Below, piece by piece: positions 24,796 to 57,505 of a stretch of 64,000 bases of DNA. Source of the DNA: Tomocerus qinae (lineage: Eukaryota; Arthropoda; Collembola; Entomobryomorpha; Tomoceridae); contig CM034547.1 of assembly GCA_020055645.1 (NCBI GenBank), positions 43,131,909-43,195,908 on the forward strand, read 5' to 3'. Below the pieces are notes generated by a model, which worked only from the letters and a program-made list of their open reading frames with translations, was not told where the DNA came from and ran no database searches. The position numbers were made by a program, and so were the translations under genes. Positions within the stretch are counted from its first letter, which is position 1. Each line of letters starts with the position of its first letter.

Positions 24796-25296
24796 TGCCG
24801 TCGATTGTGAAGTACTGTTACCTGCTTTCAAGTTTAGCCTTCCTATCCCCAAGTTGCATAGCGATACGCATTCTGATTGGTTGATAATTTTTGAAATCTT
24901 GCAATCTGATTGGCTATTTCTATGACAAAAATTCTATAGGTTACCTAAATGGGGACACATTTTCAAAATTTATGAAATTGTTGCAAAACTCAACCAAGTC
25001 ATATTATGAATCATCTGAATGATCTATTTACCTACGAGTTTCCCTTTCAATGTACACATTTCTGAGAATGGTGAATCGAGCTATTTATATACACAATATT
25101 ATGCAATTATTTAACTATGACTCTGGTACAAGTGAACAATCGGTACTACTTTATTCCAATTTATTACAACATGAAGGTAAATGCATTTAGGATTAACTAT
25201 GTAACTAACTAGTTAAATTCCACTGTATTCTAGAAAATATTTTTCCACAACATTAATAAGCTATTCGATGTCAATAAATTTATATAAGCAATCAGA

Positions 25297-25442
25297 TTAC
25301 ACTGTTTCAGAAGCTGATGCTTCATCAGTATTTGCTAGCTGATTGTACCCTTTCTTGGACAACTCCTCAATGACACTCAAGCGACTAACTTTTAATTTTC
25401 GTCGAATCCAGGTCAAAAGGACTCCTAGGCTAAATAATACAG
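25297..25442 (-). pseudogene. Inverted duplicate of the last exon
   Basis: The left foldback arm carries the reverse complement of exon 25711-25856, including its TTTCAG acceptor, with the frame open to a TAA stop. No upstream exon precedes it on this strand, so it is probably not expressed as protein. Its near identity to the right arm suggests recent duplication or gene conversion. Confidence 0.7.
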
Positions 25443-25545
25443 CTGAAATCAAAAAAGATGGATCTTAAGGATTTGAAAAGTCCCGAATACTGAACTCAGT
25501 AAAATACTATAGCTTATTGCTTTCGCAAATTTTCAGTCCGCCGCA

Positions 25546-25856
25546 ATGTGTCCACCTGAGGAAAATAAAGATTCCATTTTCTGGACATTTTTGAAATCCG
25601 ATCTTGTGGAGCATTATTTTTATCCGAGTAAGTTGAAGTTTATTTTTGAAATAATTTATAGTATATTCGGGACTTTTCAAATCATTAAGATCCATCTTTT
25701 TTCATTTCAGCTGTATTATTTAGCCTAGGAGTCCTTTTGACCTGGATTCGACGAAAATTAAAAGTTAGTCGCTTGAGTGTCATTGAGGAGTTGTCCAAGA
25801 AAGGGTACAATCAGCTAGCAAATACTGATGAAGCATCAGCTTCTGAAACAGTGTAA
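25546..25856 (+). CDS. 75-aa hypothetical protein, two exons, in foldback loop
   Basis: Exons 25546-25627 and 25711-25856 join by GTAAGT and TTTCAG signals in phase 1, giving 75 codons and a TAA stop. The N-terminal part has an aromatic stretch (SIFWTFLKSDLVEHYFYP). The last exon starts with a short hydrophobic segment (VLFSLGVLLTW), then RRKLK and a polar tail ending in ETV. I do not recognise the family. The last exon is clearly homologous to exon 4 of the 265-aa gene at 45968-48127, in the same intron phase. An acceptor (TTTCAG) lies just before the ATG at 25537, so the start could be internal to a once longer gene. AATAAA lies near 25998. The exon is duplicated in inverse at 25297-25442. 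It may be a functional short gene or a fragment caught in the element; the open frame and splice sites are intact. Confidence 0.55.
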
Positions 25857-26590
25857 TCTGATTGCTTATATAAATTTATTGACATCGAATAGTTTATTAA
25901 TGTTGTGTAAAAATATTTTCTAGAATACAGTGGAACTTAATTAGTTAGTTACATAGTTAATCCTAAATGCATTTACCTTCATGTTGTAATAAATTGGAAT
26001 AAAGTAGTACCGATTGTTCACTTGTACCAGAGTCATAGTTAAATAATTGCATAATATTGCGTATATAAATAGCTCGATTCACCATTCTCAGAAATGTGTA
26101 CATTGAAAGGGAAACTCGTAGGTAAATAGATCATTCAGATGATTCATGATATGACTTGGTTGAGTTTTGCAACAATTTCATAAATTTTGAAAATGTGTCC
26201 CCATTTAGGTAACCTATAGAATTTTTGTCATAGAAATAGCCAATCAGATTGCAGGATTACAAAAATTATCAACCAATCAGAATGCGTATCGCTATGCAAC
26301 TTGGGGATAGGAAGCCTAAACTTGAAAGCGGGTAACAGTATGATAATCTATCCCAAGAAGTGTGATAAAAATGCACTTCATTTTGGTAAATGATTATCGG
26401 AGTTGACACATGTAAAAGTGCCTAGATTATGACGTCATAGTTCAGGTACTTTTACACGGTGTCTACCCCGGCATTGTGGTTATCTAGAAACTATCCCTTG
26501 GCCTTGCTGGGAGCCACACTACGGTTTGGTCGTGCTATGATCTCTAGACCAGCATTGTGGTACTAATAAGGCAAGGTGACTTGAAAGCTG

Positions 26591-26900
26591 CACTGCTAGA
26601 AAAGTTTACTGCATATGCATGTAAATTGCACTGCATACAGACCAACTTCGTATATCACTGGATTTACCAAATTTGGATTACCGGGAACAACAGTAAATGC
26701 AACAATGCCAAATACAGTATTACTTTTATGCATATGCAGTTATTATATAGTAGACAGCTGATTGAGTAGCTAACTGGGGCCCCAGTAAACTCAACCTGGA
26801 TATGCAGTAATCGTTACTGGAACAATTACTTTAGCATGCACGTTGGATTTACCGGGACTTATGAATATGTAATCAGTAATTTCGTGTCATATGAAGTCTC
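26591..26900. promoter_or_regulatory. Left subterminal repeat region
   Basis: Scattered copies of TTACTGCAT, CAGTAA and GTTACTGG in both orientations (near 26606, 26692, 26714, 26783, 26804, 26813 and 26874), plus GGATTACCGGGAACAA and a second GGATTTACCGGGA at 26845. By analogy with plant CACTA elements these are candidate sites for an element-encoded DNA-binding protein. That role is inferred. Confidence 0.6.
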
Positions 26901-27151
26901 AGAATTTAGTCTCGTATTGCATATTATGAAAATAATCAAATTTTGATAGCAATCTATTTAATTCGTACACAAATTATATATAAAATATTATAAATACATA
27001 CCATCAATTACAAAAATTATGTAAATACATACTATAAATATAAACTACGTATAAATCTTAAAACTGAAATTTTATTTAAATTCTTTGTAGGCATATAAAC
27101 ATTAAATCAAAAGCACTTATTAAATGCCTATTAAAAGGTGCAAATTTGAAT

Positions 27152-30100
27152 TCAATTTTTTACTCGCCAAATCGTTTGCCCTAATAGAGCTTGCAGGGCA
27201 ACAGAAGTTTTACTAGGGTCATTTGGCCTTTCAAATACCCCAATATCTAAATATTCCCAGATTGCCTTCGATTCTAAAGGGAAATTTAAACCAAGGACAG
27301 TGAACGATTTGTAGCATGTATCCAAAGCGTTTAAAAAATTGTTTTCAGTAGGAATGATGAAATTTTCAACTACAATCCAGAAGCGGCTAAAGCAAAGATT
27401 TTCCAAACTTCCAACCGCTAATATAAAAGGAGACGTGGTTGTATTTTTTGCGGTGACCTCCTTAGGGTTTCCTATTTCCTGAAATATAAAAATTATTTTT
27501 AGTAAACAAAGTTACCATATTTTCATAAAAGTAAATTATAAGTTAACTATTAGATATTTCAATTACTGGGATGCAAACAAAAGTCGAATGCAGACTGTCC
27601 ATTCTTGACGCTTTGATTGTAGGGGTAGATGTATTTTGTAACGTTCGCTTTCGGGTATTAGAGTAGTGCTGATAGGTTTTTGTTTTTGGTTCCCGGGAGC
27701 CATCGTCTTTTCGGCCGCACATTGGAAGAAGATGAGACAGCAGCAAGAAACCGATAATCATCACATCGTCTAAATGACAAAAAATTTTTAAATGCTCAAT
27801 TAAAGTTTGTCACAAATTGAATGCTAAGATAAATCAAGATTTAAGCGCTCATTTTGTGTACACGAAAAGCATGAGGGAATTGGCAACCCCATTCCTATCC
27901 AAAATAGGGCGATTGGTAGCCCCATTCCTATCCAAAATAAGACAATTGGCAGCCCCGTTCCTGTTCATAATAATGCAATTATTGGCAGCTCCATTCTTAT
28001 TCAAAATAAGGCGATTGGCAGCCCCCATTCCTATACAAAATGAGGAGATTGGCAGCCTCAATTCTATACAAAATGAGGCGTTTGGCAGCCCCTTTTCTAC
28101 CCAAAATAACGCGATTGACAACCTCATTCCTATCCAAAATGGGGCGATTGGCAGCCCCGTTTTAAGCATGCTGATGAAAATGGTAGCCCGATAACTTTGT
28201 ATACAAAAAAATTATCAACGTCTTTCAACTACATGAGAACATTAGCCTAATAGGTTTTATTATATGATTGTCTTAACTCTTGCCTTATAAAGCTAGCTGC
28301 TAAATTAAAATTTCAATCAGATTGCACAGAATAAATGCCAATTTACGGATACAAGGTTTCATAATATATCTATTTTATTATACATCAGAAAATTCATTAA
28401 TTGCTATCAAACTATAATAATAATATAAATACGTTAATTTAGTTAAAAAGAGAAGCAATTGCTTCAATTACTTTTCCCATGTTTCACTTTCATGTGGTGA
28501 TGTTTTTTTGCCAGTGTGATCAAACCTTTCATCACAAATGCCGCATTTATATGGTTTGATTTTCTTGTGTACGTTTGAATGTACCCTTAACGAATCCCGA
28601 TTTCCGAATGTCTTTCCACATATTCCGCAAACAGGTTTTTCTATCTTCTGATGCTGGTTTTGCAAATGACGTCGTAAGGATTTTTTATGACTAAACGATT
28701 TACTGCACAAACAGCATCCCAATTCTAATAGATGCAAATAGAAATGTCAATTTAAGTTTTCATTAAAGTTTACTATCTGCTATATCTTTTGAAAGTTAAG
28801 GATTTACTTACTGCCGGTTACAGTGGTCTTTACTGCTATGCATTTTAATTCATTTACATTTCTGGAGCTACTTTGTTCACTGACTGCTGGGCATTCATCT
28901 TCTTCTTGATGTTTTTCAAGAGAAACAACAGCTAGTTGTTCCGCTAGGTCTTTGTTTTTCTTTTTTAAATGAGACTTTGCTTGATTCAATTGCTCTTTTT
29001 CCTGTAGAGCTTTGTCCAGTTTCTCGTTCAAGTCTTCTATTTGTTTTTGTTCCTCTGCTGAATTGCTTGTTTTCTTCAATGATAAAACCTGATTTTGCAG
29101 TTCTTGAATTTGGGGACGAAGTATTTCAATTGTATCGTTTGCAGTCAGCAATTTAGTTTCTACATCTTTAAGGGTTGACATTGAAATTTCAAGATGCTTG
29201 TTTTGTTCAAGTATAGCTGCATTTTCCTGCCTTAGAACTGACATTTCCTCCGTAGCTTTCTCAAATTTCGTATTAAATGTGGACACGAATTCTTGATGCT
29301 CTCTTATTGCTTGAATCTTGCCTACCTTTAACTGCGTCAATTTCGTTTGAAGAACATCTAATTTTGTTTTGAAAGCTCTGGTTTCATGCTCTAATACTGT
29401 AATTTCGGTCTGCTTCAACTCGTCGTCTTTTCTTAAGGCTTCTGATTCTGCTTTTGAACTCTGTAACAGCTGATCTTTTCTTAAAACTTCCTTTTGTAAT
29501 TTTGAATTTTCTTCCTTCAATTTATGGACTTTCTTGGTGAATATAAATGCATCTTTATCGTTTTTGTTATTCTTTTTTTCCATATCATTTATTTGACTTC
29601 TAAGAAATTCCACTTCGGCTTTTAAATTCGAAATTTCTCTGTCGCTGCTATCTGCTTTTAATTCAAAAACGTTGTCAATTTATTTTTTAATTCTTTAAAT
29701 TTCAAATAGCGTTAAATTCAAGTTTTAAAGTAGTTATTATTACCTTTCAATGTAATAGTCTCTTTTGTAGTAGCCACAGGATTGGGAATATAGCGAAATC
29801 CAAAAGTAAGGTATGCATTTTGCCTCAAAACTGTTGATGTCAGGCAAAATAGATAGCTTCTTTGGACCCTTAACTTTTTTTATCGGCGCATCCTGTACAT
29901 CTCCAATGCGGAAAAATTTCTCCAAACATACTGAAAAAAAATTTTATTTTTATTTTATTTTCATCGCAGAAACTCATTTATATATTATGATAATAAAAAT
30001 GTTTTACCGTTTGTAATATTTGCCTTCTGAAAACCAAAGCGTTCCCATATATACGATTCTTTTAAGGCTGCAGCAATATTAATTCGGTGACTGGGCGCTT

Positions 30101-33100
30101 TCATCAATAATTTTTGAAGAACAGATTTTTCTGGTAGGGTTGGTATAGCTTCCAGCCTTTTACGTATGTACTTGGTGTCAACAATTAATCGCTTACAATC
30201 TTCTCTATGGTCAGCATCAATTAAGCCCTGGTGTTGTGGGTGGAAAATTTCAAACATCACAGCGCCAAAAGACCAATAGTCGGATTCTACTCTCCAGTTA
30301 TTGTCGACAGAGCTTTCAGGTGCGTGATAGCAATATGTACCTACGTAGTCTTCTTTTATTATATCAGTTGGCTACAACAAACATAGAAATTCAGTACATT
30401 TTCAATTCATTTAAAGTATTTCAAAAACTGAAGCGGTGCAATTATTAGCATAAACATAATTATTTGGCATTTAATACCTTATCAAGAATCATTGAACACC
30501 CTAAATCTGCAACTTTAACGTGCAAATTGGAATCCACAAGAATGTTTGGTGTTTTTAAGTCACGGTGCACAATCCCCAAGGAATGCAAATGAATTAAAGC
30601 TTCCCCTATTTCGACAAAGTAAACTGACGCAGCTTCTTTAGGTATAACTGCTGTTTTCATAAAATCGTCTAGATTTCCATCTACAATATAAAACAGATAT
30701 TATGAGTTTACTATTTTTAAGAAATGAAAAATATTATATTGTCGACATTTTAAATGCTTATTATTTAGCCCCTAGCGTGCCTACCTATTAACCATTTGTC
30801 AGCCCTGGCTGGACCATCTATTAACAATTTGTCAGCCCTTACCTGCCTATTTATTATCAATTTGTCAGCCCTTCCCTTGTTATCTATTAACAATTTGTCA
30901 GCCCTTACCTGGCTACCTATTAATAATTTGTCCGCCTTTGCTTGTCAGTGTACGCTACAGACTTGCCAGCCTTTATAATTTTTTAGCATGTTGTACTTTT
31001 TGTCAGCCCTTGCGCAACTATGTAAACTTATATTGTCAGCCCCTTGGGCATTATATACTACAAGCATTGTATACTACATACTATATTATAACTACAAGAA
31101 AAATATTTAAATAAATATAATCTAAAGTAGGGAAATGATATTCCACAACAAAGTACAACAAAATACTACTATAATAACTATCAAACTAACAAAACCGTAA
31201 CGAGCCTCAAAATACAAGAAAACTTACATTGGCAAAATTTCAAAATGAAATTGGTAAAGTTCTCTGTTTGGAAAGCAGCAAAAAGTTTGACGATATAAGG
31301 ACTGTTGCATCTTCTCAAAGCATTTAGTTCGTTAAAGCTACAATTGACAGTGTCTTCATCTTTCTTTTCGATCCGCTTTAATGCCAAATAATCATCATTG
31401 TACTTCCATTTTATCTGTAAGTCACATATAATCGGTTAATATTGTTATTGTTTAGCGTTGCTATCGGTTATAGAAATTAAATAGGATTTACCTTATAAAC
31501 ATTCCCATATGACCCACTCCCAATTCCACCAATGAAATCAATATCCTCTAGCAATGAATCTTCTCTAAGAGCTATAATATCTGCAACTAAAAAAGTAAAA
31601 TAATTTTAATTAAAGTTTCCAGTTTTTGTATTACTGCTAAAAACACTATAACAAAGACTTACTTTGAGGGGCAAAAACAGGTAGCAAACCTGCAGGGCTC
31701 TTATTATCTGCTATTTTGGAAACAAAGTCTACACAGTCCTAATAAATACAAGCACACCGTTGTAAAATTCTTTGATGTCAGATTACACATTACTACGGCT
31801 GATGTCACAATAAACATTTGATGTCAAAGAATCGTATCACATATTTTATTAGATGTTGTAATAATTGGTCCACACTTACCAGAATAAATTCTGTTTGGTC
31901 CACACAATCTTTCTTCTTCGACATTTTCACAAACGTGGATCTGATCAATAGTTGTGGCAAGAGAAATGTCAAACGACTGAATGGAAGAAGCTGTTGCTAA
32001 AAATGCTTTCTTACTGCACCGCGTCTTGAAATACAGTTTAAAAGGCGTAGCGCAAGGTATAGAACTACTCTAGCAGTTTTTCAGGATATGAGTTGGTGCT
32101 GGTATTGGCATGCTATTGAAGTTTTACCTGCTTTTGACAAATGGTTTGCTTTTATAGCCCTTAAGAAATGTGTAGAAAGTGCAATCACGGTATGCAATGC
32201 TATTGGCAGCCCATGAAAATGATATGTAAAGGGATTGACAGTCGCTCAATAATATTATGTCAAAGAGGTGCCCGTCTTTCTCAAATGACACCTAAAGCAA
32301 TTGGCAGCCCTTCAATAGTGATATCTAAAGCGATTGGCAGCCCTTCGATAATTATATTGGTAGCCCTTCAACAATGATATGAAAACCCTTGGCAGCCCTG
32401 TATTGATCGTCTTATTGATGGGTATTGGCAGCATATACGTATATATCGTAGATGATCAAATTTGATCATGTGAATTTCAAACATGAATACATTTTTGGAA
32501 ATAAAGCTTACCAGGTAATAATTCATGACGTGGTTTGGTGATACCAAGAAGTGTTAACGGGTTTTGTGATTCTGCATATGAAAACAGTACTTCTGATAGT
32601 TTCGGCCAATATTTGTACAGCAACAGAGTTTTCCCTGGGTGTCGAAGACGGAAATCTAATGATATCTGACAACACAATAAAAGCATCAAAAGTATTTTAT
32701 TATGTCAAAATGTATAAGCAAAATTCAATACCATGCTCTTCGTGTCAAAAAGACGAGGCCAAGTTGATGCCACATTAGAGATTTGGTTTTTAGTTTTCCG
32801 AATTGTAGTTCTTCTTTGGAAAACTGTTGCGGCCATCATATCAGTAACAGCATCTCCCAGGTTAGATTTCAAAAATGTTACTTTTTCATCATCAAGCTCC
32901 GGATTAAAATCTAAGTAATAATATCATCCATTAAATTATAATGGTTTTCGAAAGTTTTGAAGGCTTTCATACTTAGACCATATTATTACCTTCATCTTCT
33001 GATTTCCATCCTGACGAGTCAAAATTTGGCAAATTAACGGTTTTTTTCTGAATTATGTTGTTTTTCTTTATGTAACTTCCTCTTTGTGACTTAATCCTTT

Positions 33101-36100
33101 CTTCAAGAAAGCCTACAGCATGTTGCATACCCTTTGTATAAAAGTACCACATGGAGGCACCTTTATCGTCTTCAAGAACATTGCCAAATGATGGGTAAAG
33201 CATTACGAGATTAACAGCCAGTGCAGACAATGCATCTTTACTTGGACTTAAATTATAAAGTAGAATACTTTATAAGCATATTGTTCCATATTGTTCAAAC
33301 TGAAAAAATTTAATAGTAGAGTTAAAGATTGCTAAAAATTAATTATTTACTATGGTCCAAGTTTGTTGAATAATGCGTCCACTAAAACAGCCGCAATTTC
33401 CCTACGGTCATCTCTAAATATGAATCCTTCCGATGAAATTTTTGTCTGGATAATTTTAGAAGTCCGGGGATCTGTAGTCAGTGTTTCTGTTATATCCTGT
33501 CAAAAGTTTAAACCGTCTTTAAAATTTTATTTGATAATTTTAGATGGCCAAAAAAATATTAAATATCATACAAAGCAGTAAATTTCCTGTTTTTTTGTCA
33601 GCTGTCCAGGTTGCATTGGAGGTTGCAGATTAGAAGAAGTTTCTGCTAAAACCGTGGGCGAAATCGGAACTTCTATTATAGGGAATGAAAGGTTTCCTAT
33701 ATTTTCGTCATCTAGATTAACAATCGACACATTAGGAGTAAAGACTTCGATGATCTTGCAATTTTCCACAGGAGTTACAGTAATCTCCTCTTGATTCGTC
33801 TGATTGATAAGTGGTCTAAGCGCCAAATCACACTTCTCTAATTCCAACAGGCTGTTGTATTCATTTACTCCAGATTGTGCTGTCCAACTTGAAGCCTAAA
33901 TATTAATTATTGTGTCCAGTTTACATGGAACGGTAACGTATTTTTTAAGTGATGATTCAGCTGTTCCCATCTCACTGAATACTAAGGGCAATGGCAGATT
34001 TTTTGGTTCAACAACGGAATACTTTTCACAGTATTTAAGTTCATATGACATGAAATGTTCACTGTATTTTCCCGATGCTTCTTGAACCATGAAAATTACG
34101 CTTTCAGCTACAACCAAAATTGAATAAATTTTTCCAAAAAATAAACTCATATGGTTATTTTCTAGAAACACAACAGACCCAAGAACATACTCAATATTTC
34201 TGTAAGTTATTTTTTCGGTGATTAGCACTTTATCCGTACTTAATAATGGAATTTTTTGTGTAAGTATTTGAAAGTTAGGTATGGAATTCACTTGGACAAT
34301 TTTATAGTCATAGTTTCGAATTTCGTCGAGTAAATACAAAGGATTTGTAAGTAGGTGATACGCCAATTTCAATTGATGACGGTACGATGTGGTTTTTGAT
34401 ATATTTTTAAAACTTCCACTGCTTCTTGCTACAGTTTTAAAAAACTTGTGCTTACTTTCAAAGTGCATGCACCAAAACGGTTTCAGTGGACCAATGGCTT
34501 CTATTGAGCTTCGGTAATGCAGTAAGTGATGGTGTTTAGGAAGTAACTTGGATTGAGTTAATGCTGGAGTTAACTTCAAAAACTCTGACACAAGAACACT
34601 TAAAATTTGCAAGTCACTTTTTGTTTGGACAGGGGACATTATTATATCAAATGTAGATCTTAATATGGAAAATAATTTCCAAAGCTGATTTGTTTTAGGA
34701 ATTATGTCACCGATTATCAATGGCAAACAAATCATTAAACACATATTCTGGGATGCACTTTGTAGTGATAAGCTCTTGCCACTTAAAAATGTTTCTTTGA
34801 TATCTGTAGGTTTTGATTTGTAAAACTGCAAGCCATAGTGATATGATTCTAATTTCAAATTTAAGGATTCTAAAGAAATAATTCCTTTGGAAATATAGGA
34901 ATAAATCATGGCTTTTAACAAATGAGGGAAAACTCCCTCAAGAATATCATGCATAATGTCAAAGGAATAATTTTTGGTAACGTGAAAATATGGTAGGTTA
35001 TTAAGAAGTGAGTCAAATTTAATTCCTGTTAGGGACAAGTCATTTTTCTTAATATCGTTGTTGTAGCTTTCCACATTTCGTATTTGTTCTTTTGATTCTA
35101 ATATTTGATCTTGTACTTGTGTTTTATGAATTGAGCAACGTCGGCAATGTCTGTTTGCACTAAAACTTTCGGTAAAGCCAAGTATTGTGTGTAAGCCGAG
35201 ATTGTCACCTGTGATTTGCGATACTGCTACTTTGTATAAAATATATTCATTTTCCTTTCGCAGTACGATCCCAGTTTCCCAAAGTTGTATTAATTCCTTT
35301 ACTACAAAAGATAAAATAGCATTGCTACCGCATATTTTGAAATCTTCAGATTTTATTGATGCTAGCAAAAACGTATTACACTGCTTAGATTGAATTTGAG
35401 CAGGGAGATCAGTAAAAGAGAAGTATAAATTTGCTAACTTATGTCTACCAGCTCTAGATCCAAGTGGATTAGCCATTTCAGCGTCGTCGTAAAATATTGT
35501 TATGAGTATTAAATTTTCAGCACGTAATTCACTTTGAAAATGATTGCCGCATCTAAACGATTTGTATACATTTGAAATCCTTTCTTCATTTAAATTGATA
35601 GTGGCTAAGAAATTTGTACATTCGGACAGCTGAACAAGAGTACTTGCTATCGACACATATTCCATTGTTACAGGTTGATATTCATTAGTTGCACCATTCC
35701 GTCCTTGTCTAAATCTTAAATCTGTGTCCAGTACTATCTGTTTAGGTAAATTGAGAAATTTTTTACGCTGTAGCCATTTGTCCATTTTGTACTTTGAATC
35801 TATTGTAACAAAGGGATTCTTGCATTTAGTCATTTTGGCTATATGTTCTAACTGTGCAGACTTGGGAGAAATGTCTAATGCGGAGATCGCTATTTGCTCA
35901 CAGTGTGTAACAATATATTCAATAATGTCTTTGATTTCCTTTAACGACGAGTCGAAAGTAGACATAGGCAACTTTCCTGAAGATAGTAGCCGACATTGGA
36001 TTTTTATAGCTAGTTTTTCCAATTCCACTTCAGAGACATCGATAAATACATCTTCTTTTTCAACAAACACATAATCTTGATCAAGGTCTTCATTATGGTC

Positions 36101-38058
36101 CATTGGATCAATATTTACGATATTTGAATTAGAACTTAAACGTAACTCACTGTGATATTTAAACACATTTCGAAAATGATAATAAAAGGATTTTCTATTA
36201 TTGTATTTCGATCCACAATGCACACATTTATATATGTCAGCTTCTTTTAGCGCATGGATACTTCTAAGGTGCCCAAGCAAATTTGTTAAAGATTGAAATC
36301 CTACAGAACAAATATGGCAAACATATACCTGTTCACTTTTGATTGCGTCAATTCTTGCTAAAAATTTTCTTCGGTTTCCTAAACTCAAGCCTAGTGACTC
36401 CAAATCAGATTCAGTAGCTGATAGGATGGCAGTATCATCGTAGTCTTCCACTGAAACAATAAAGGTTTAATTGTAAATTAACATCCGTATCTCAGGACCA
36501 ATATCACTACGTTAATTAAGTAAATAATCACTGTATATATCTATGATGACAGATTTTTGAGGCTTTTAAACAGCTTCAGATGTCACTCTATATACGATTA
36601 TGACTTTTAGCTTGTCAGCCCCCAATATGTTTATAACTTATAACTTGTCAGCCCCCATCCCGTTGGTAACTTTAAACTTGTCAGCCCCGGATACATTTGT
36701 AACTCTTAACTTGTCAGCCCCTGCACGTCTAAAATTCTTCAATTTGTCATCGCTTTCCACTTTCACAACTATTAATTTGTCAGCCCTTCTACACTTTCAA
36801 AAATACTAATTTGTCTGCCCTTTTACGCTTCCATACTAATATTTTGTCAGTCCACCTATTCTACAAATATTAACTGAGTATACCAGCCCACATGAGCTTC
36901 TAAAACTGTTACTGAGCTACCAAATTGTCAGCCCCGATTGCATCTAAAATTAGTAGGTTGTCAGCCCCAATGGTATGAAGCCGTTATCCATTAGACTTGG
37001 GGTTACAATTAAGAGTGACTAAATCATCGCCCCGCCAAATTAATATGCCATTAAACTTCTATAGTTGGCTTGTCAACTTTCCTAAATTAAAAGAAATGCA
37101 CTGGCTATTGGATGGAATGAAAGGTGGCATATCAAAGATTGTTTCATATAACGCCGTAAAGAAATTAGTTATTAATTTTATGGGTATTCATTCTATCATT
37201 CATATTATTATTCTTACTGATAACGTAACGTATATTAATAGCCATCTTTCGTTTTTTGCAATGAGTGAAGATATGTATCTTAGAGTTGAGTGGAATTTGG
37301 CCTTCGAAACTTATGCCCCGTGTGAGGCATTTACCTAGAAAAAACGGTTTGCAAAAATGCTAATGTTAGCATTACAAGATGAGTTGGATGGAGTGCACGA
37401 TGTTGACACTAGCAGGTAAATGCAGGTTTATTTTAGTATCGTTAAAACATTTGATGTAAAAAATATTTTGGTCATAATGTGAAACAACGTTTTTAACTTC
37501 AGTAAACCTCCATGCAAGCGTTGTTTATCTACGGAAAAAGAACAACCAGCCTCAGAGATTCAGAAAGAGTCTATGGAAGACTCGGAAACCCAGGATGCCA
37601 GTTCCAAAGGAAAAATATAGAAGAGGGTAAATATATACATTTTAATATTTTAACTTTCAGAAACCGACCTAATTTTGAAAAAGTATAAAAGCCTAGTACA
37701 ATTTTTACATTACAGAAACGATGGAGAAATAATTGCTGTCTGTGAATCTGAGCCAATTCACGAATATTCGCAGGCTTTATCCTGACTATCCTGACAATCA
37801 ACATTATCATTTATTGATCATAAAATACAAACAACTTTATGTGCATGTTATTGAAATGTTGATGTTTGGGTAAACCATTATATATGCTATACAATGGATT
37901 CATTAAATTATTGCTTCCTACTTTGTATCTTTTCATCAGTCGAATTTTTATATTTCTTAAATCTATAAAAATTTCAAATAATTACCTTCAAATTTCGGTA
38001 GTAAATGAAGTAAATCGAGGTGGTCCAACAAGTCTTTCACTGTGGTGTAGGTTCCCAT
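27152..38058 (-). CDS. 524-aa SAM protein, alternative product of transposase locus
   Basis: Eight exons: 38058-37986, 36450-36329, 33895-33572, 33496-33351, 33246-32990, 32910-32732, 32665-32512 and 27471-27152. All junctions are GT-AG, phases agree and the total is 525 codons with the stop. The first two exons are those encoding the SAM domain of the transposase, cut by a CAG|GTATAT donor. The later exons show RREIAAVLVDALFNKLGPYP, WYFY...GFLEERIKSQR, WPRLFDT...LDFRLRHPGK and a C-terminal FWIVVENFIIP...ALDTCYKSF block. These resemble uncharacterised animal proteins that, as I recall, accompany such transposases. Its role is unknown; by analogy with plant TnpA it may bind element DNA. AATAAA is at 27071-27076. 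The last intron is about 5 kb and holds the kinase gene. The splice choice at exon 2 and the last junction (acceptor AAATAG) are inferred. Confidence 0.75.
27880..28170. repeat. Minisatellite array 1, 33-bp units, TTGGCAGCCCC core
   Basis: About nine units. The core TTGGCAGCCCC is followed by a spacer near ATTCCTATCCAAAATAGGGC, period about 33 bp. It lies between the kinase stop and the last exon of the 524-aa gene. The overlapping 125-aa and 106-aa open frames are artefacts of the 3n period. Confidence 0.88.
28468..31924 (-). CDS. Protein kinase fused to coiled coil and three C2H2 fingers
   Basis: Nine exons: 31924-31880, 31738-31663, 31580-31492, 31414-31228, 30680-30478, 30371-30008, 29930-29744, 29651-28812 and 28724-28468; about 748 aa. 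The kinase domain (about 54-310) is complete: glycine loop IGSGSYGNV (60-68), LALK lysine 83, helix-C glutamate 99, HRDLKTPN (171-178), DLG (191-193, replacing DFG), APE (217-219) and DYWSFG (231-236). A basic linker follows, then a coiled coil of about 250 residues rich in E, K, L and Q, then three C2H2 fingers, the third atypical (CGIC...H with weak second His spacing). A TATAAAAG box (32156-32149) lies 225 bp before the ATG and AATAAA (28379-28374) downstream. It is nested in the last intron of the 524-aa gene, same strand. Exon 7 needs one base removed to stay in phase. The HRD...N and GxGxxG motifs suggest an active kinase; its substrate is unknown. Confidence 0.85.
29810..29825 (-). other. 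Apparent 1-nt frameshift in kinase exon 7
   Basis: Exon 7 (29930-29744) enters in the phase set by exon 6 and reads a plausible basic segment ending LPDINSFEAK. After that the plausible frame is shifted by one (AYLTFGFRYIPNPVATTKET), and only the shifted frame leaves in phase 1, as exon 8 requires. The switch falls at the TTTT run at 29818-29821 (AAAA on the coding strand). It could be a sequencing or assembly indel, a disabling mutation, or ribosomal frameshifting. Confidence 0.65.
30790..31045. repeat. Minisatellite array 2, 32-bp units, TTGTCAGCCCT core
   Basis: About eight units with core TTGTCAGCCCT and spacer near TACCTGCCTATTTATTA, period 32 bp. It lies in intron 4 of the kinase gene. 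Confidence 0.88.
32140..32430. repeat. Minisatellite array 3, 33-bp units, TTGGCAGCCC core
   Basis: About nine units, some degenerate, with core TTGGCAGCCC and spacer near TTCAATAGTGATATCTAAAG. It lies immediately upstream of the kinase promoter and inside the last intron of the 524-aa gene. Confidence 0.85.
32149..32156 (-). promoter_or_regulatory. TATA box of the kinase gene
   Basis: On the minus strand the sequence reads CTATAAAAGC, a consensus TATA box, 225 bp upstream of the ATG. It lies at the edge of the third minisatellite array. This supports the kinase being a separate transcription unit rather than exons of the surrounding gene. Confidence 0.55.
33896..38058 (-). CDS. 875-aa SAM-C2H2 transposase (CACTA/EnSpm TNP2-like)
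   Basis: Exon 1 (38058-37986) and exon 2 (36450-33896) join in phase 1 and give 875 aa. Residues about 8-62 form a SAM-type domain split by the intron. Two C2H2 fingers follow (CHIC...HLRSIH near 69-90; CVHC...YHFRNV near 102-124). The core has FYDDAEMANPLGSRAGRHKL near 344, GDNLGLH near 439 with a CRRC pair, and DIMHDILEGVFPHLL near 522, segments typical of animal EnSpm/CACTA transposase-like proteins. The Asp and Glu residues there are candidate catalytic positions, but I cannot assign the triad. The frame is undamaged. The TAG stop (33898-33896) provides the AG of the splice acceptor of the alternative exon. A TATA-like AAAATATAAT lies about 25 bp upstream of the ATG. The 37045-37620 gene lies in intron 1. 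Confidence 0.85.
36605..36975. repeat. Minisatellite array 4, 33-bp units, TTGTCAGCCCC core
   Basis: About eleven units with core TTGTCAGCCCC and a variable spacer (for example CATCCCGTTGGTAACTTTAA), period near 33 bp. It lies in intron 1 of the transposase gene. Confidence 0.88.
37045..37620 (+). CDS. Small basic hypothetical protein, three exons
   Basis: Exons 37045-37155, 37339-37415 and 37503-37620 splice at GTAAAG/CCTAG and GTAAAT/TTCAG with matching phases (0 and 2) and give 101 aa. If intron 1 is not removed, the frame hits the TAG at 37336-37338. Exon 1 is aromatic and basic (FYSWLVNFPKLKEMHWLLDG). The second exon reads RFAKMLMLALQDELDGV. The tail has CKRC and Glu/Ser-rich stretches. 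I do not recognise it. It lies on the strand opposite to the transposase gene, within its first intron. An upstream exon is possible, because the frame stays open back to 36997. The model rests on splice logic alone. Confidence 0.45.
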
Positions 38059-38149
38059 ATTAGAGGCTTGAATTATATTTTGAAACTTCTGATTTTATGG
38101 GCATCACTTTTTGTTGTCAAAAATCTTTTTCAAGTAAAATCTGAATGAG

Positions 38150-38411
38150 TGGATTCACACTTTCCGCTGTAGAACTTTGGCAGATATACAGTAATTAGAA
38201 ATTGCGCATGCTCAGAAAGCCGATATAGACTTTCTTTAAAGCACATGCAGTAATTTTTATTACTTTTACTGCATCTAGCCTTGAATTGATGCATACCGTG
38301 ACGATACAGTAACTGTTTGTCGGATATGAAGTAATGAATATTGTGCAGTAACTGCAATTGCAGTGCCACTACCTCTTACCTTGTTCCCGGTAATCATCTT
38401 TTTTAGCAGTG
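38150..38411. promoter_or_regulatory. Right subterminal repeat region
   Basis: Contains ACAGTAATTAG (38178), TGCAGTAATTTTTATTACTT with TTTACTGCAT (38247-38276), ACAGTAACTGT (38306), GCAGTAACTGCAATTGCAG (38345) and the inverted TTGTTCCCGGTAATC (38381-38395). It mirrors the composition of the left end. The 80-aa open frame here is not coding. Confidence 0.6.
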
Positions 38412-38504
38412 TGTGAATTTCTAAACCCAAAACCTTTTCGTTCTAATTATAGCTGCCATGATCTGTGTACTAGGTGATGGAAAACTGATATCCGGTTTGA
38501 TATT

Positions 38505-42470: not shown

Positions 42471-42481
42471 CATAACATTAA

Positions 42482-43023
42482 GGTGGGGTTCATTGTTTCA
42501 TAGTGGAATCTATAGTCTGCGACAAAACTTAAAAAAATAGGGTGTGCGCGCAAATTGTGGATGAGAAGGAATTGCTGCGAGTTGTTGAGTTGTTTTGATG
42601 GTTGCGGAGCTTTTGTTTGTAAAGAAATTGTTTGTGGACGTCTCCTTGTTCTTCCCACAAAATTTTTCGCAGTAATTATCAAAAAATTTACATGGAAAAT
42701 CGCATTTTCCAAATTGCGAAACTTTAGGACATTGTGCAGAGGTGAAATAAATTTCAAAAAAAAGACGATCAAAATATCTATCGAACCTGAAACTTTTTTC
42801 AGTTATCATCATTTAAACAGGAAATAAAAATGTAAATACATTTCTGCAATGCATTTCTCCTACTCAAATTAAATTCAAATTTTCAGCTTTCGAAAAATGT
42901 TTTTGAAATTTTGGCCTTCAGGTTCGATAGAGAAATATGCGTAGATTTCAAAAGTGTCAATTTTATTACTATACTCTTTGCCGTTCTCTCTGAATCTGGA
43001 ATTTGCGAACAATAAACCCACCC
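42482..43023. mobile_element. 542-bp TTAA MITE, copy 1
   Basis: It starts GGTGGGGTTCATTGTTT and ends with the complement of GGGTGGGTTTATTGTTC; TTAA stands at 42478-42481 and 43024-43027. It is nearly identical to the copy at 54902-55446. The end sequence and TTAA duplication suggest mobilisation by a piggyBac- or Kolobok-type transposase. The roughly 100-aa open frames on each strand have no domain features. Confidence 0.9.
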
Positions 43024-43299
43024 TTAAAGTGCACAGATAAATGTAAGTAAAATGTTCACCGAAATTTTTTTTCCATTTTCCGATTTCAAATAATATCTGT
43101 CGAATGTCAAATAATAATCGTTAAAACGTTAATATCTCGAAATCGGAGATGAATATGAAGAAATGCCGAGTAGCAGCCCTAGACCAGGATTTTCTACGAT
43201 TTTAGAGACCAACCTTGTCTTTCTACGACCAGTATTCTCGGAGTTATATCCGGTTTCCGAAAAAAGTTAAAGGCTAATTTGATAGTCAAGGTCGTGTCC

Positions 43300-43680: not shown

Positions 43681-45074
43681 AGCTCGCCTGAATAAGGCAG
43701 CTTATAGAACCGCACAGTCTGTCCGTACGTCCGTCCGTCCGTACCCACGATAACTTTTGAAAGCAATGACGGATATAGACCAAACTTGGCAAAAACAATG
43801 CCTATGGACCACTGACGATCCCTATTGATTTTGGGGTAAATCGGTCCATAGGTTGCTGAGATACCGCGCGCTCACTTTGTCTTCATTTTGATAGTTAAAG
43901 TGAAAAATGGGCATTGAAAGTTGTAATACCGTTTCCTATAGATTGTTAGCGGGATAGTATAAACTATATCATGCCGCTTCTACTAAAACTGAAATTATAT
44001 AGTAAAATAACTAAAACGGAAAACTACCTTTAAAAGTAAAATAACGAATCTGTTTCAAGTTTGTCTTGATTTTAACAGTCAATATTAATAAATTTTCATT
44101 ATGTATTGACTTTGATAGTCAATATTAATAAATTTTCATTATGTATTGACTTTGATAGTCAATATTAATATATTTTCATTACGATTGACTTTGATAGTCA
44201 ATATTAATATATTTTCATTACTTATTGACTTTGATAGTGACTATTAATATATTTTCATTATGTATTGACTTTGATAGTCAATATTAATATATTTTCATTA
44301 TGTATTGACTTTTATAGTCAATATTAGTATATTTTCATTATGTATTGACTTTGATAGTCAATATTAATATATTTTCTGATGCATTGATCTTGATAGTCGA
44401 TATTAATATATTTTGATTTTGTTTTGATTTTGATAGTCAATATTAATCAATTTTGATTTTCTGTTGATTTTTATAGTCGATATTAATATATTTTGATTTT
44501 GTTTTGATTTTGATAGTCAATATTAATAAATTTTCATTATGTATTGACTTTGATAGTCAATATTAATATATTTTCTATTAATATATTAATATATTTTGTT
44601 TTTCTGTTGATTTTCATAGTCAACATTTATCAATTTTGATTTTCTATTGATTTTCATTGTCAACATTAATCAATTTTGATTTTCTTTTAATTTTCATATT
44701 CAAAATTAATCAATTTTGATTTTCTGTTGATTTTCAGTCAACATTAATCAATTTTGATTTTCTGTTAATTTTCATAGTCAACATTAATCAATTTTGATTT
44801 TCTGTTGATTTTCATAGTCAACATTAATCAATTTTGATTTTCTGTTGATTTTCATAGTCAACGTTAATCAACTTTGATTTTTTGTTGATTTTTCAAATAA
44901 CACAGCTTCGTTTCCCTATAATATCAATGTCTGAATTTTTAATATGTCATAGCTACATATATAAAGACCAAATTCTGAAAGTTTAATCAAAATCCGTACG
45001 CTCGGTTTTGTGCTGTGTGCGAGTACTTTTTGTCTACCAAAATGTGTACACGTTAACCTTTAATCAGGCGAGCT
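43681..45074. mobile_element. 1.39-kb element with AGCTCGCCTG ends and internal satellite
   Basis: AGCTCGCCTGA at 43681 and TCAGGCGAGCT at 45074 are inverted ends. A GTCCGTCCGTCC run lies near the left end. The interior is dominated by the 40-bp satellite. No gene. Confidence 0.75.
44055..44892. repeat. 40-bp palindromic AT-rich satellite
   Basis: About twenty units based on TTGACTTTGATAGTCAATAT followed by TAATATATTTTCATTATGTA. The right half shifts to TTGATTTTCATAGTCAACAT with TAATCAATTTTGATTTTCTG. Each unit contains an inverted TTGACT/AGTCAA pair. Confidence 0.9.
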
Positions 45075-54450: not shown

Positions 54451-54901
54451 TTCCGAACCCCCAATAAATCGAATAATACACCATTCCTTCTCAGTATATT
54501 ATATTCTATTTTCCTTGCCTTCTAGGTAGGGTTTCTTGCTATTTCTATGGTTTTTACCAAAAAGAAATTTAATATTTAATTCCAAATTGGGAGAAACATA
54601 CTGTTAGCCCCTCTCAACCTTTGACTTCCTATCCCCAAGTTGCATAGCGATACGCATTCTGATTGGTTGATAATTTTTGAAATCCTGCAATCTAATTGGT
54701 TATTTCTATGACAAAAATTCTATAGGTTACCTTAAATGGGGACACATTTTCAAAATTTATGAAATTGTTGCAAAACTCAACCAAGTCATATTATGAATCA
54801 TCTGAATGATCTGTTTACCTACTAGTTTCCCTTTCAATGTACACATTTCTGAGAATGGTGAATCGAGCTATTTATATACACAATATTATGCAATTATTTA
54901 A

Positions 54902-55446
54902 GGAGGGGTTCATTGTTTCATAGTGGAATCTATAGTCTGCGACAAAACTTAAAAAAATAGGGTGTGCGCGCAAATTGTGGATGAGAAGGAATTGCTGCGA
55001 GTTGTTGAGTTGTTTTGATGGTTGCAGAGCTTTTGTTTGTAACGAAATTGTTTGTGGACGTCTCCTTGTTCTTCCCACAAAATTTTTCGCAGTAATTATC
55101 AAAAATTTTACATGGAAAATCGCATTTTCCAAATTGCGAAACTTTAGGACATTGTGCAGAGGTGAAATAAATTTCAAAAAAAAGACGATCAAAATATCTA
55201 TCGAACCTGAAGCCGCTTTTTTCAGTTTTCATCATTTAAACAGTAAATAAAAATGTAAATACATTTCTGCAATGCATTTCTCCTACTCAAATTAAATTCA
55301 AATTTTCAGCTTTCGAAAAATGTTTTTGAAATTTTGGCCTTCAGGTTCGATAGAGAAATATGCGTAGATTTCAAAAGTGTCAATTTTATTACTATACTCT
55401 TTGCCGTTCTCTCTGAATCTGGAATTTGCGAACAATAAACCCACCC
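54902..55446. mobile_element. 545-bp TTAA MITE, copy 2, with empty site
   Basis: It starts GGAGGGGTTCATTGTTT and has TTAA at 54898-54901 and 55447-55450. The undisturbed sites at 25.1 kb and in the opposite arm near 56.12 kb read AATTATTTAACTATGACTCT with a single TTAA, so the insertion and duplication are directly demonstrable. It is about 98% identical to copy 1 by eye. Confidence 0.93.
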
Positions 55447-55809
55447 TTAACTATGACTCTGGTACAAGTGAACAATCGGTACTACTTTATTCCAATTTAT
55501 TACCACATGAAGGTAAATGCATTTAGGATTAACTATGTAACTAACTAGTAAAATTCCACTGTACTTTAGAAAATATTTTTACACATTAATAGACTACTAA
55601 TTGATCTCTATAAATATAAATAAGCAATCAGATCACACTGTTTGAGAGGCTGATTCTTCATCAGTATTTGCTAGCTGACTGTACCGGTACCCTTTCTTGG
55701 ACAACTCCTCAATGACATTCAAGCGACTAACTAACATTTTCAAAATTTATGAAATTGTTGCAAAACTCAACCAAGTCATATTATGAATCATCATCATCAT
55801 ATCATTATC

Positions 55810-55938
55810 CTGTTGACCTGGATTCGACGAAAATTAAAAGTTAGTCGCTTGAATGTCATTGAGGAGTTGTCCAAGAAAGGGTACCGGTACAGTCAGCTAG
55901 CAAATACTGATGAAGAATCAGCCTCTCAAACAGTGTGA
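55810..55938 (+). pseudogene. Truncated copy of the shared last exon
   Basis: Reads LTWIRRKLKVSRLNVIEELS and on to a TGA stop, matching the 25.7-kb exon with a few substitutions and an in-frame 6-nt insertion (GYRYSQLANTD). The acceptor, the hydrophobic start and the preceding exon are missing. The inverted partner lies at about 55638-55735. Confidence 0.75.
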
Positions 55939-56923
55939 TCTGATTGCTTATTTATATTTATAGAGATCAATTAGTAGTCTATTAATGTGTAAAAATATTT
56001 TCTAAAGTACAGTGGAATTTAACTAGTTAGTTACATAGTTAATCCTAAATGCATTTACCTTCATGTGGTAATAAATTGGAATAAAGTAGTACCGATTGTT
56101 CACTTGTACCAGAGTCATAGTTAAATAATTGCAAAATATTGTGTATATAAATAGCTCGATTCACCATTCTCAGAAATGTGTACATTGAAAGGGAAACTAG
56201 TAGGTAAACAGATCATTCAGATGATTCATAATATGACTTGGTTGAGTTTTGCAACAATTTCATAAATTTTGAAAATGTGTCCCCATTTAGGTAACCTATA
56301 GAATTTTTGTCATAGAAATAACCAATCAGATTGCAGGATTTCAAAAATTATCAACCAATCAGAATGCGTATCGCTATGCAACTTGGGGATAGGAAGTCAA
56401 AGGTTGAGAGGGGCTAACAGTAATTTCATTTTCAAATGACATCAATTGCATGTATCATGTATCTTATTTTCGAGCATTTTCGAATCTGTTTGAGCATTCG
56501 AGTCCGTTTGAGCATTTCCGAACCTGTTTGAGGTTTTTTCACTATATATTAAAACCTTAGGATCTGAGATTATCTTATGGTTACAGAAATGGAAAGGTCA
56601 TGCATACATGATCTTTTTCTGTTTAAAACGCCTAAAACTAAATCTGCCAAACTGAGTGGATGATGACTGATGACAAATAAATAACGTATTTAGACGTGGA
56701 GTATCTCCTAAATCTACAGTATGTATTGAAAGTGGGTATACATAGGAGTTTATGGGTATACATAGAATTTCAGTATCCATAGCACTTTCATTGTTAGTAT
56801 ACAGTACACAAGTTCAATTTGCAATTTTTACCAGCCAGATTTCCCTTTTATTATTTCATTGTTCGTCCCTCTATCCTTCTTTTCGCAATAAATAATGCGT
56901 TGTTTCAATCTGAAGAACTCAAT

Positions 56924-57208: not shown

Positions 57209-57505
57209 TGATCATAATGATCATGATCAAGGGACCATGATGATCATGATCAAGGGACCATGATGATCATGATCAAGTGAACATGATGATCATGATCAAG
57301 TGAACATGATGATCATGATCCGGTGACCATGATGATCATGATCCAGTGACCATGATGATCATGATCCAGTGACCATGATGATCATGATCCAGTGACCATG
57401 ATGATCATGATCCAGTGACCATGATGATCATGATCCAGTGACCATGATGATCATGATCCAGTGACCATGATGATCATGATCAAGTGATCATGATCATTAT
57501 GATCT
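57208..57505. repeat. 23-bp ATGATCATGATC minisatellite
   Basis: About thirteen units of CATGATGATCATGATC plus CAGTGAC; each contains the palindrome ATGATCAT. Confidence 0.92.

Follow-up and report, generated by a model that had tools for sequence, protein, structure and literature searches.

A probable CACTA/EnSpm-like element of the collembolan Tomocerus qinae with a RAG1-like recombinase and a protein kinase gene between its ends

A 64,000-nucleotide stretch of the genome of the collembolan Tomocerus qinae (assembly GCA_020055645.1, contig CM034547.1, positions 43,131,909 to 43,195,908 of the forward strand; hereafter the window, whose own numbering is used throughout) contains what is best explained as a paired-end mobile element that carries a protein kinase gene, a reading to which we assign a probability of roughly 0.55. 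The evidence supports borders at 26591 and 38411, which enclose an 11.8-kb CACTA/EnSpm-like element (26591..38411) with the kinase gene between them. It likewise supports the identification of the transposase as a RAG1-like recombinase of the CMCT clade, the group of EnSpm/CACTA and Plavaka, with a sub-threshold Plavaka match and with SAM, C2H2 and BAH-like parts. That the interval is one mobile unit containing the kinase is likely; that the kinase is a gene of the element rather than a passenger comes a little short of an even bet.

Borders of the element

An initial annotation of this DNA had proposed inverted ends that start with CACTG and match at 13 of 14 positions, and a 15-bp inverted motif just inside them. 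Both are present, at 26591 and 38411 for the ends, with TG on either flank, and at 26676-26690 and 38381-38395 for the motif (Table 1); over the outermost 20 positions the two ends agree at 16. Taken alone, the 13/14 match means little, because the 64-kb window holds 509 inverted pairs of 14-mers, 8–16 kb apart, that match as well. In only one of these 509 pairs do both ends carry CACT, namely the pair described here, which also has the TG repeat and the 15-mer. Inside the element there are 111 inverted pairs, the longest 25 of which do not contain the (short) ends. The outer 300 bp of each end are further enriched in two short motifs, TTACTGCA with five occurrences (null mean 0.009) and TTACCGGGA with three (null mean 0.000), and when 2000 pairs of 300-bp stretches were drawn at random from outside the element, none matched either count, in a test that was not blind, as the motifs were picked after the ends were known. 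The termini, CACTG..CAGTG, agree with the CA..TG form of the CMCT clade and with the CAC..GTG form of EnSpm, as given in PMC12730594, and the direct TG on both sides of this one copy is compatible with the 2–5 bp target-site duplication of the clade.

It is conceivable that the border is accidental, that is, that the ends derive from different or nested elements with a host kinase caught between them, as a single copy and the abundance of 13/14 pairs at such a range would allow. We consider this highly improbable, however, since the sole CACT pair of the 509 also combines the 15-mer, the TG repeat and the subterminal enrichment, since transposase exon 1 begins 353 bp from the right end, and since repeat arrays private to the element, described below, span the interval.

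A RAG1-like transposase

From its start near the right end, the transposase gene (product P0001) runs inward in two exons. The initial annotation had called it a TNP2-like transposase with an intact frame. The frame stands, at 851 codons (36451-33896), but the family does not: TNP2 is absent among the 11 Pfam families that P0001 matches at E <= 1, and filing the element as a TNP2-type EnSpm was rejected on that account. The only transposase among the 11 is Plavaka (E 0.002), whose profile scores 17.9 bits, below its cut-off of 26.3, so that the protein is not placed in Plavaka either.

The protein instead has a RAG1/Transib-like fold, with a DDE core formed by D322, D416, C436/C439, H641/H645 and E665 and with the C(2)C and H(3–4)H of the CMCT pattern between the second D and the E. 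Across 36 sequences D416, C436 and C439 are invariant and H641, H645 and E665 are kept in at least 90%; D322 is invariant only in the 12 closest. A SAM-C2H2 transposase of Folsomia candida (P0009) shares 39% identity with it across 99% of the query and has the same domain order. The C-terminus folds in the manner of a BAH domain, and eight relatives align across it; we name it BAH-like only, because no significant match was found by sequence (no Pfam BAH family for P0001 at E <= 1) or by structure (best Foldseek E 0.047, none at 1e-3). Viral contigs yielded no relatives, either from P0001 (one pattern match) or from alignment A2 (72 pattern matches). On the opposite strand, within transposase intron 1, lies a small, two-exon-like open frame (37261-37622, +) with an in-frame stop close to where it begins, possibly a third element gene or a relic.

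The kinase gene and the putative gene around it

The kinase gene comprises nine exons, from 31924 to 28468, with GT/AG borders and consistent phases, and encodes 749 residues; its protein was searched as the genome reads, with modelled splice sites and unaltered bases. The Pkinase profile matches with an E value of 1.8e-47 and the domain is complete; the predicted protein would contain all of its motifs (GxGxxG, K, E, HRDLKxxN, DLG, APE and DxW), and an alpha-kinase profile is absent among the seven Pfam families at E <= 0.5. Codon scores support exons 2, 5, 6 and 8 (0.000–0.018 of the null scoring as good), with exons 1 and 9 borderline (0.050 and 0.060). The complete kinase gene of the initial annotation is thereby upheld in its nine exons and its entire kinase domain but not in every detail, for a frame change in exon 9 seems to break the third zinc finger. 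In exons 7 (29744-29930) and 9 (28468-28724) an alternative frame gives a better-looking protein, and both anomalies lie near runs of seven A, as decay or an assembly error might leave them. The top solved relatives are AGC kinases, namely PKC iota (E 4.2e-28), ROCK2, RSK and AKT. A protein search returned 378 kinase relatives that pass 1e-5, and among the best 120 of these identity is at most 33% and query coverage at most 36%.

Beyond the transposase stop, five exon-like frames (33895-32512) are followed by the kinase and then by two more (27706-27155) in continuing phase. These B exons likely encode another product from the gene region of the element, and the kinase appears to be nested in a 4.8-kb intron of this second gene. 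Codon scores support B1 to B3 (0.007–0.020 of the null as good). In a Folsomia gene model, P0012, transposase sequence is continued by a segment alignable with B1/B2. The B region may also resemble SAMD3-like proteins, a likeness that none of the listed titles or abstract openings on SAMD3 reports and that we do not use as evidence.

Private arrays and the history of the kinase

Four arrays of a 10-bp core, TTG(T/G)CAGCCC, lie within the element and step mostly by 33 bp. The core has 21 exact copies in the element and none elsewhere in the window on either strand; allowing one mismatch raises the number in the element to 29, every one on the plus strand, and gives six outside it (four plus, two minus). 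Between arrays, the core is 0.83–0.98 identical and the spacers are 0.20–0.39 identical (28 of the 29 units, leaving out that at 30963). In young minisatellites the whole unit is normally retained. In these arrays conservation is confined to the core and does not extend to the spacers, from which we infer a constraint on the core at the protein or RNA level. The array within a kinase intron (T2) can be taken as the best evidence that a single copy offers for a common history of kinase and transposase, and the possession of these arrays by both kinase and element argues against the kinase being a chance neighbour.

The element could nonetheless be real and the kinase a passenger, captured from the host by this copy or subfamily and without any part in transposition. 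In keeping with this, its closest relatives of solved structure are ordinary AGC kinases, it has a TATA-like box of its own (a weak signal), and no relative of the transposase was seen with a kinase, in a comparison that left the genomic neighbourhoods of those relatives outside. Such a capture is unlikely in our view: the array of the kinase intron shares its core with that of the transposase intron while its spacers are as divergent as those of the other arrays, so that the association looks old, and the low identity among the best 120 of 378 matches is not what a recent capture of a conserved host gene would leave. A further scenario takes its cue from arrays G1 (32203-32398) and G2 (27880-28157), which bracket the kinase gene, and has kinase and arrays inserted as a unit, a second mobile element, into the intron of the second gene. 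This is very unlikely, given that none of the 18 inverted pairs of at least 14 nt in 27480-32512 encloses the gene, that the arrays are direct repeats with differing spacers, and that T2, inside the kinase, shares its core with T1, outside it.

Points against

Several observations weigh against a paired-end element with the kinase as one of its genes. Within the window there is neither a second copy of the element nor a match spanning the joined flanks, as an empty site would give, and the 2-bp TG repeat is weak evidence by itself. Kinase exons 3, 4 and 7 (0.220–0.268) and exons B4, B5 and B7 (0.210, 0.223 and 0.335) are not distinguished from the null by codon score, and a search of 8000 candidates with the joined B protein gave no relative at E <= 0.01. 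The long residence of the kinase is drawn from the arrays alone, because no relative among the best 120 of 378 covers more than 36% of it, and this copy of the element may be decaying, given the apparently broken third finger.

The position of the arrays belongs here as well. The three introns that contain all four are the longest of the models (1535, 547 and 4805 nt, one of them only putative), the remaining 12 introns measuring 66–141 nt, and the T form of the core contains, on the gene strand, CTGAC, which we take to resemble a branch-point sequence. The arrays could accordingly be intronic repeats that serve splicing or spacing and have nothing to do with the zinc fingers, in which case the kinase might be either an element gene or a passenger. 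The G form, however, reads CTGCC on the gene strand and is not branch-point-like, yet its 33-bp step is retained, as is the remainder of the core; on balance we regard a purely intronic role as somewhat unlikely.

A possible mode of action

The recombinase would recognise the subterminal motifs with C2H2 fingers assembled by SAM and cut and paste the element with its RAG1-like core. If the kinase does belong to the element, it might dimerise by its coiled coil, while its C2H2 fingers would hold it on element DNA, where the TTGKCAGCCC arrays are natural candidate sites. From there it could phosphorylate the recombinase or nearby chromatin proteins and so set the expression or timing of transposition. 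Such array-tethered regulation is doubtful. More doubtful still is the fullest version, a self-regulating animal cut-and-paste transposon whose RAG1-like recombinase reads chromatin through its BAH-like tail and whose Ser/Thr kinase, anchored on the private arrays by its own fingers, acts through phosphorylation as a switch for transposition or for splicing. Cut-and-paste elements of eukaryotes as a rule rely on the kinases and chromatin of their host. An element with a canonical kinase of its own and an apparent DNA-binding tail would, if real, make phosphorylation-based self-control of transposons testable.

Comparison with known systems

The element shares with EnSpm/CACTA and Plavaka its CAC..GTG termini, a 2-bp flanking repeat that may be a target-site duplication, a DDE core with C(2)C and H(3–4)H, and subterminal repeats. 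It departs from both in having SAM and C2H2 parts at the N-terminus, a BAH-like part at the C-terminus, a kinase gene and one-way internal arrays, and the likeness of its transposase to Plavaka is limited to a weak profile match. In maize En/Spm a single gene region yields the transposase together with another product that binds DNA, and there are arrays of short binding sites; those sites are subterminal and there is no kinase, whereas the arrays described here are internal. To the recombinases of Transib and ProtoRAG (BbRAGL) and to RAG1 the transposase is 8–14% identical, the ends differ, and the element has its BAH-like tail on the recombinase itself. A RAG2-like gene was not noticed in the element, though no search aimed at RAG2 was made. 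RAG2 carries a histone-reading PHD, and a RAG1-like recombinase with a BAH-like end would, if confirmed, be a single-protein parallel to RAG1 plus RAG2.

Among animal elements, SmTRC1 and its relatives are CACTA-like, with 2-bp repeats in 7 of the 14 SmTRC1 copies analysed, but their ends begin with CCC in place of CACTG (PMC1636069). The initial annotation knew of no animal CACTA element with a kinase, and this goes uncontradicted: none of the matches listed, which comprise open-licence titles and abstract openings, with Repbase Reports outside their scope, reports that an animal CACTA/EnSpm element carries a kinase. Fungal DNA transposons with kinase genes, however, are in print. IS3EU transposons of rust fungi also encode a kinase beside the transposase (PMC12730594), yet they belong to another superfamily, occur in fungi and carry an alpha-kinase, whereas the kinase here is of the Pkinase type, with a coiled coil and C2H2 fingers. 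The same source describes TET/JBP genes as established cargo of transposons in fungi, EnSpm and Plavaka among them, and an alpha-kinase in TET-bearing IS3EU families. In Coccidioides, kinases are enriched among the genes near transposons (PMC5872316). The term "BAH domain" did not occur among the matches listed for BAH, transposase and EnSpm, which cover open-licence papers only.

Table 1. Features of the element in window coordinates; for exons, the codon test value is the fraction of the null scoring as good.
Feature	Position	Strand	Remarks
TG, left half of possible 2-bp target-site duplication	26589..26590	.	flank letters
Left terminal inverted repeat CACTGCTAGAAAAG	26591..26604	+	13/14 vs right end
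Subterminal 15-mer GATTACCGGGAACAA	26676..26690	+	85 bp inside left end
Third copy of TTACCGGGA	26849..26857	+	subterminal motif count
Putative last exon B7	27155..27478	-	open frame, AG acceptor; codon test 0.335
Putative exon B6	27567..27706	-	phase fits B5 and B7, GT/AG; codon test 0.072
Array G2, 8 cores (4 perfect TTGGCAGCCC)	27880..28157	+	between kinase and exon B6; steps ~33 bp
Kinase exon 9	28468..28724	-	C2H2 fingers, stop; codon test 0.060
Kinase exon 8	28812..29647	-	coiled-coil-like, weak Pfam coiled-coil matches; codon test 0.000
Kinase exon 7	29744..29930	-	reading frame of 3' half uncertain; codon test 0.233
Kinase exon 6	30008..30371	-	APE and DYWSFG; codon test 0.018
Kinase exon 5	30478..30680	-	HRDLKTPN and DLG; codon test 0.000
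Array T2, 7 cores (6 perfect TTGTCAGCCC)	30796..31042	+	inside kinase intron 4
Kinase exon 4	31228..31414	-	catalytic lysine (LALKRI), alpha-C glutamate; codon test 0.268
Kinase exon 3	31492..31586	-	glycine loop GIGSGSYG; codon test 0.220
Kinase exon 2	31663..31738	-	codon test 0.007
Kinase exon 1	31880..31924	-	ATG; codon test 0.050
TATA-like box TATAAAAG	32149..32156	-	upstream of kinase; weak, 19 TATA-like matches in element
Array G1, 5 cores (4 perfect)	32203..32398	+	between exon B5 and kinase, just upstream of kinase
Putative exon B5	32512..32665	-	codon test 0.223
Putative exon B4	32732..32910	-	codon test 0.210
Putative exon B3	32990..33246	-	codon test 0.007
Putative exon B2	33351..33496	-	matches C-terminus of Folsomia P0012; codon test 0.020
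Putative exon B1	33572..33895	-	3' end matches P0012; codon test 0.010
Transposase exon 2	33896..36450	-	SAM second half, C2H2, RAG1-like DDE core, BAH-like C-terminus, stop
BAH-like domain	33899..34354	-	P0001 residues 700-851, C-terminus of transposase
Array T1, 9 cores (7 perfect TTGTCAGCCC)	36612..36967	+	transposase intron 1
Transposase exon 1	37986..38058	-	first half of SAM domain, which it completes
Subterminal 15-mer, inverted copy of GATTACCGGGAACAA	38381..38395	-	16 bp inside right end
Right terminal inverted repeat	38398..38411	-	reverse complement CACTGCTAAAAAAG, ending 38411
TG, right half of possible 2-bp target-site duplication	38412..38413	.	flank letters

Flanks and remainder of the window

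Searches for Rfam families and for tRNAs gave no matches. Dispersed repeats, mostly 93–99% identical to one another, stand beside the element at 24813-26340, 54597-56422 and 42478-43027 and include an inverted pair (24813-25489 / 26340-25664); the long repeats of the left flank end at 26342. Some 120-190 bp to the left of the insertion, the stretch 26398-26470 is self-complementary (78% over 74 columns) and is perhaps a small inverted-repeat element. Tandem arrays occur at 44062-44892, with a 40-bp unit, and at 57209-57504, with a 23-bp unit.
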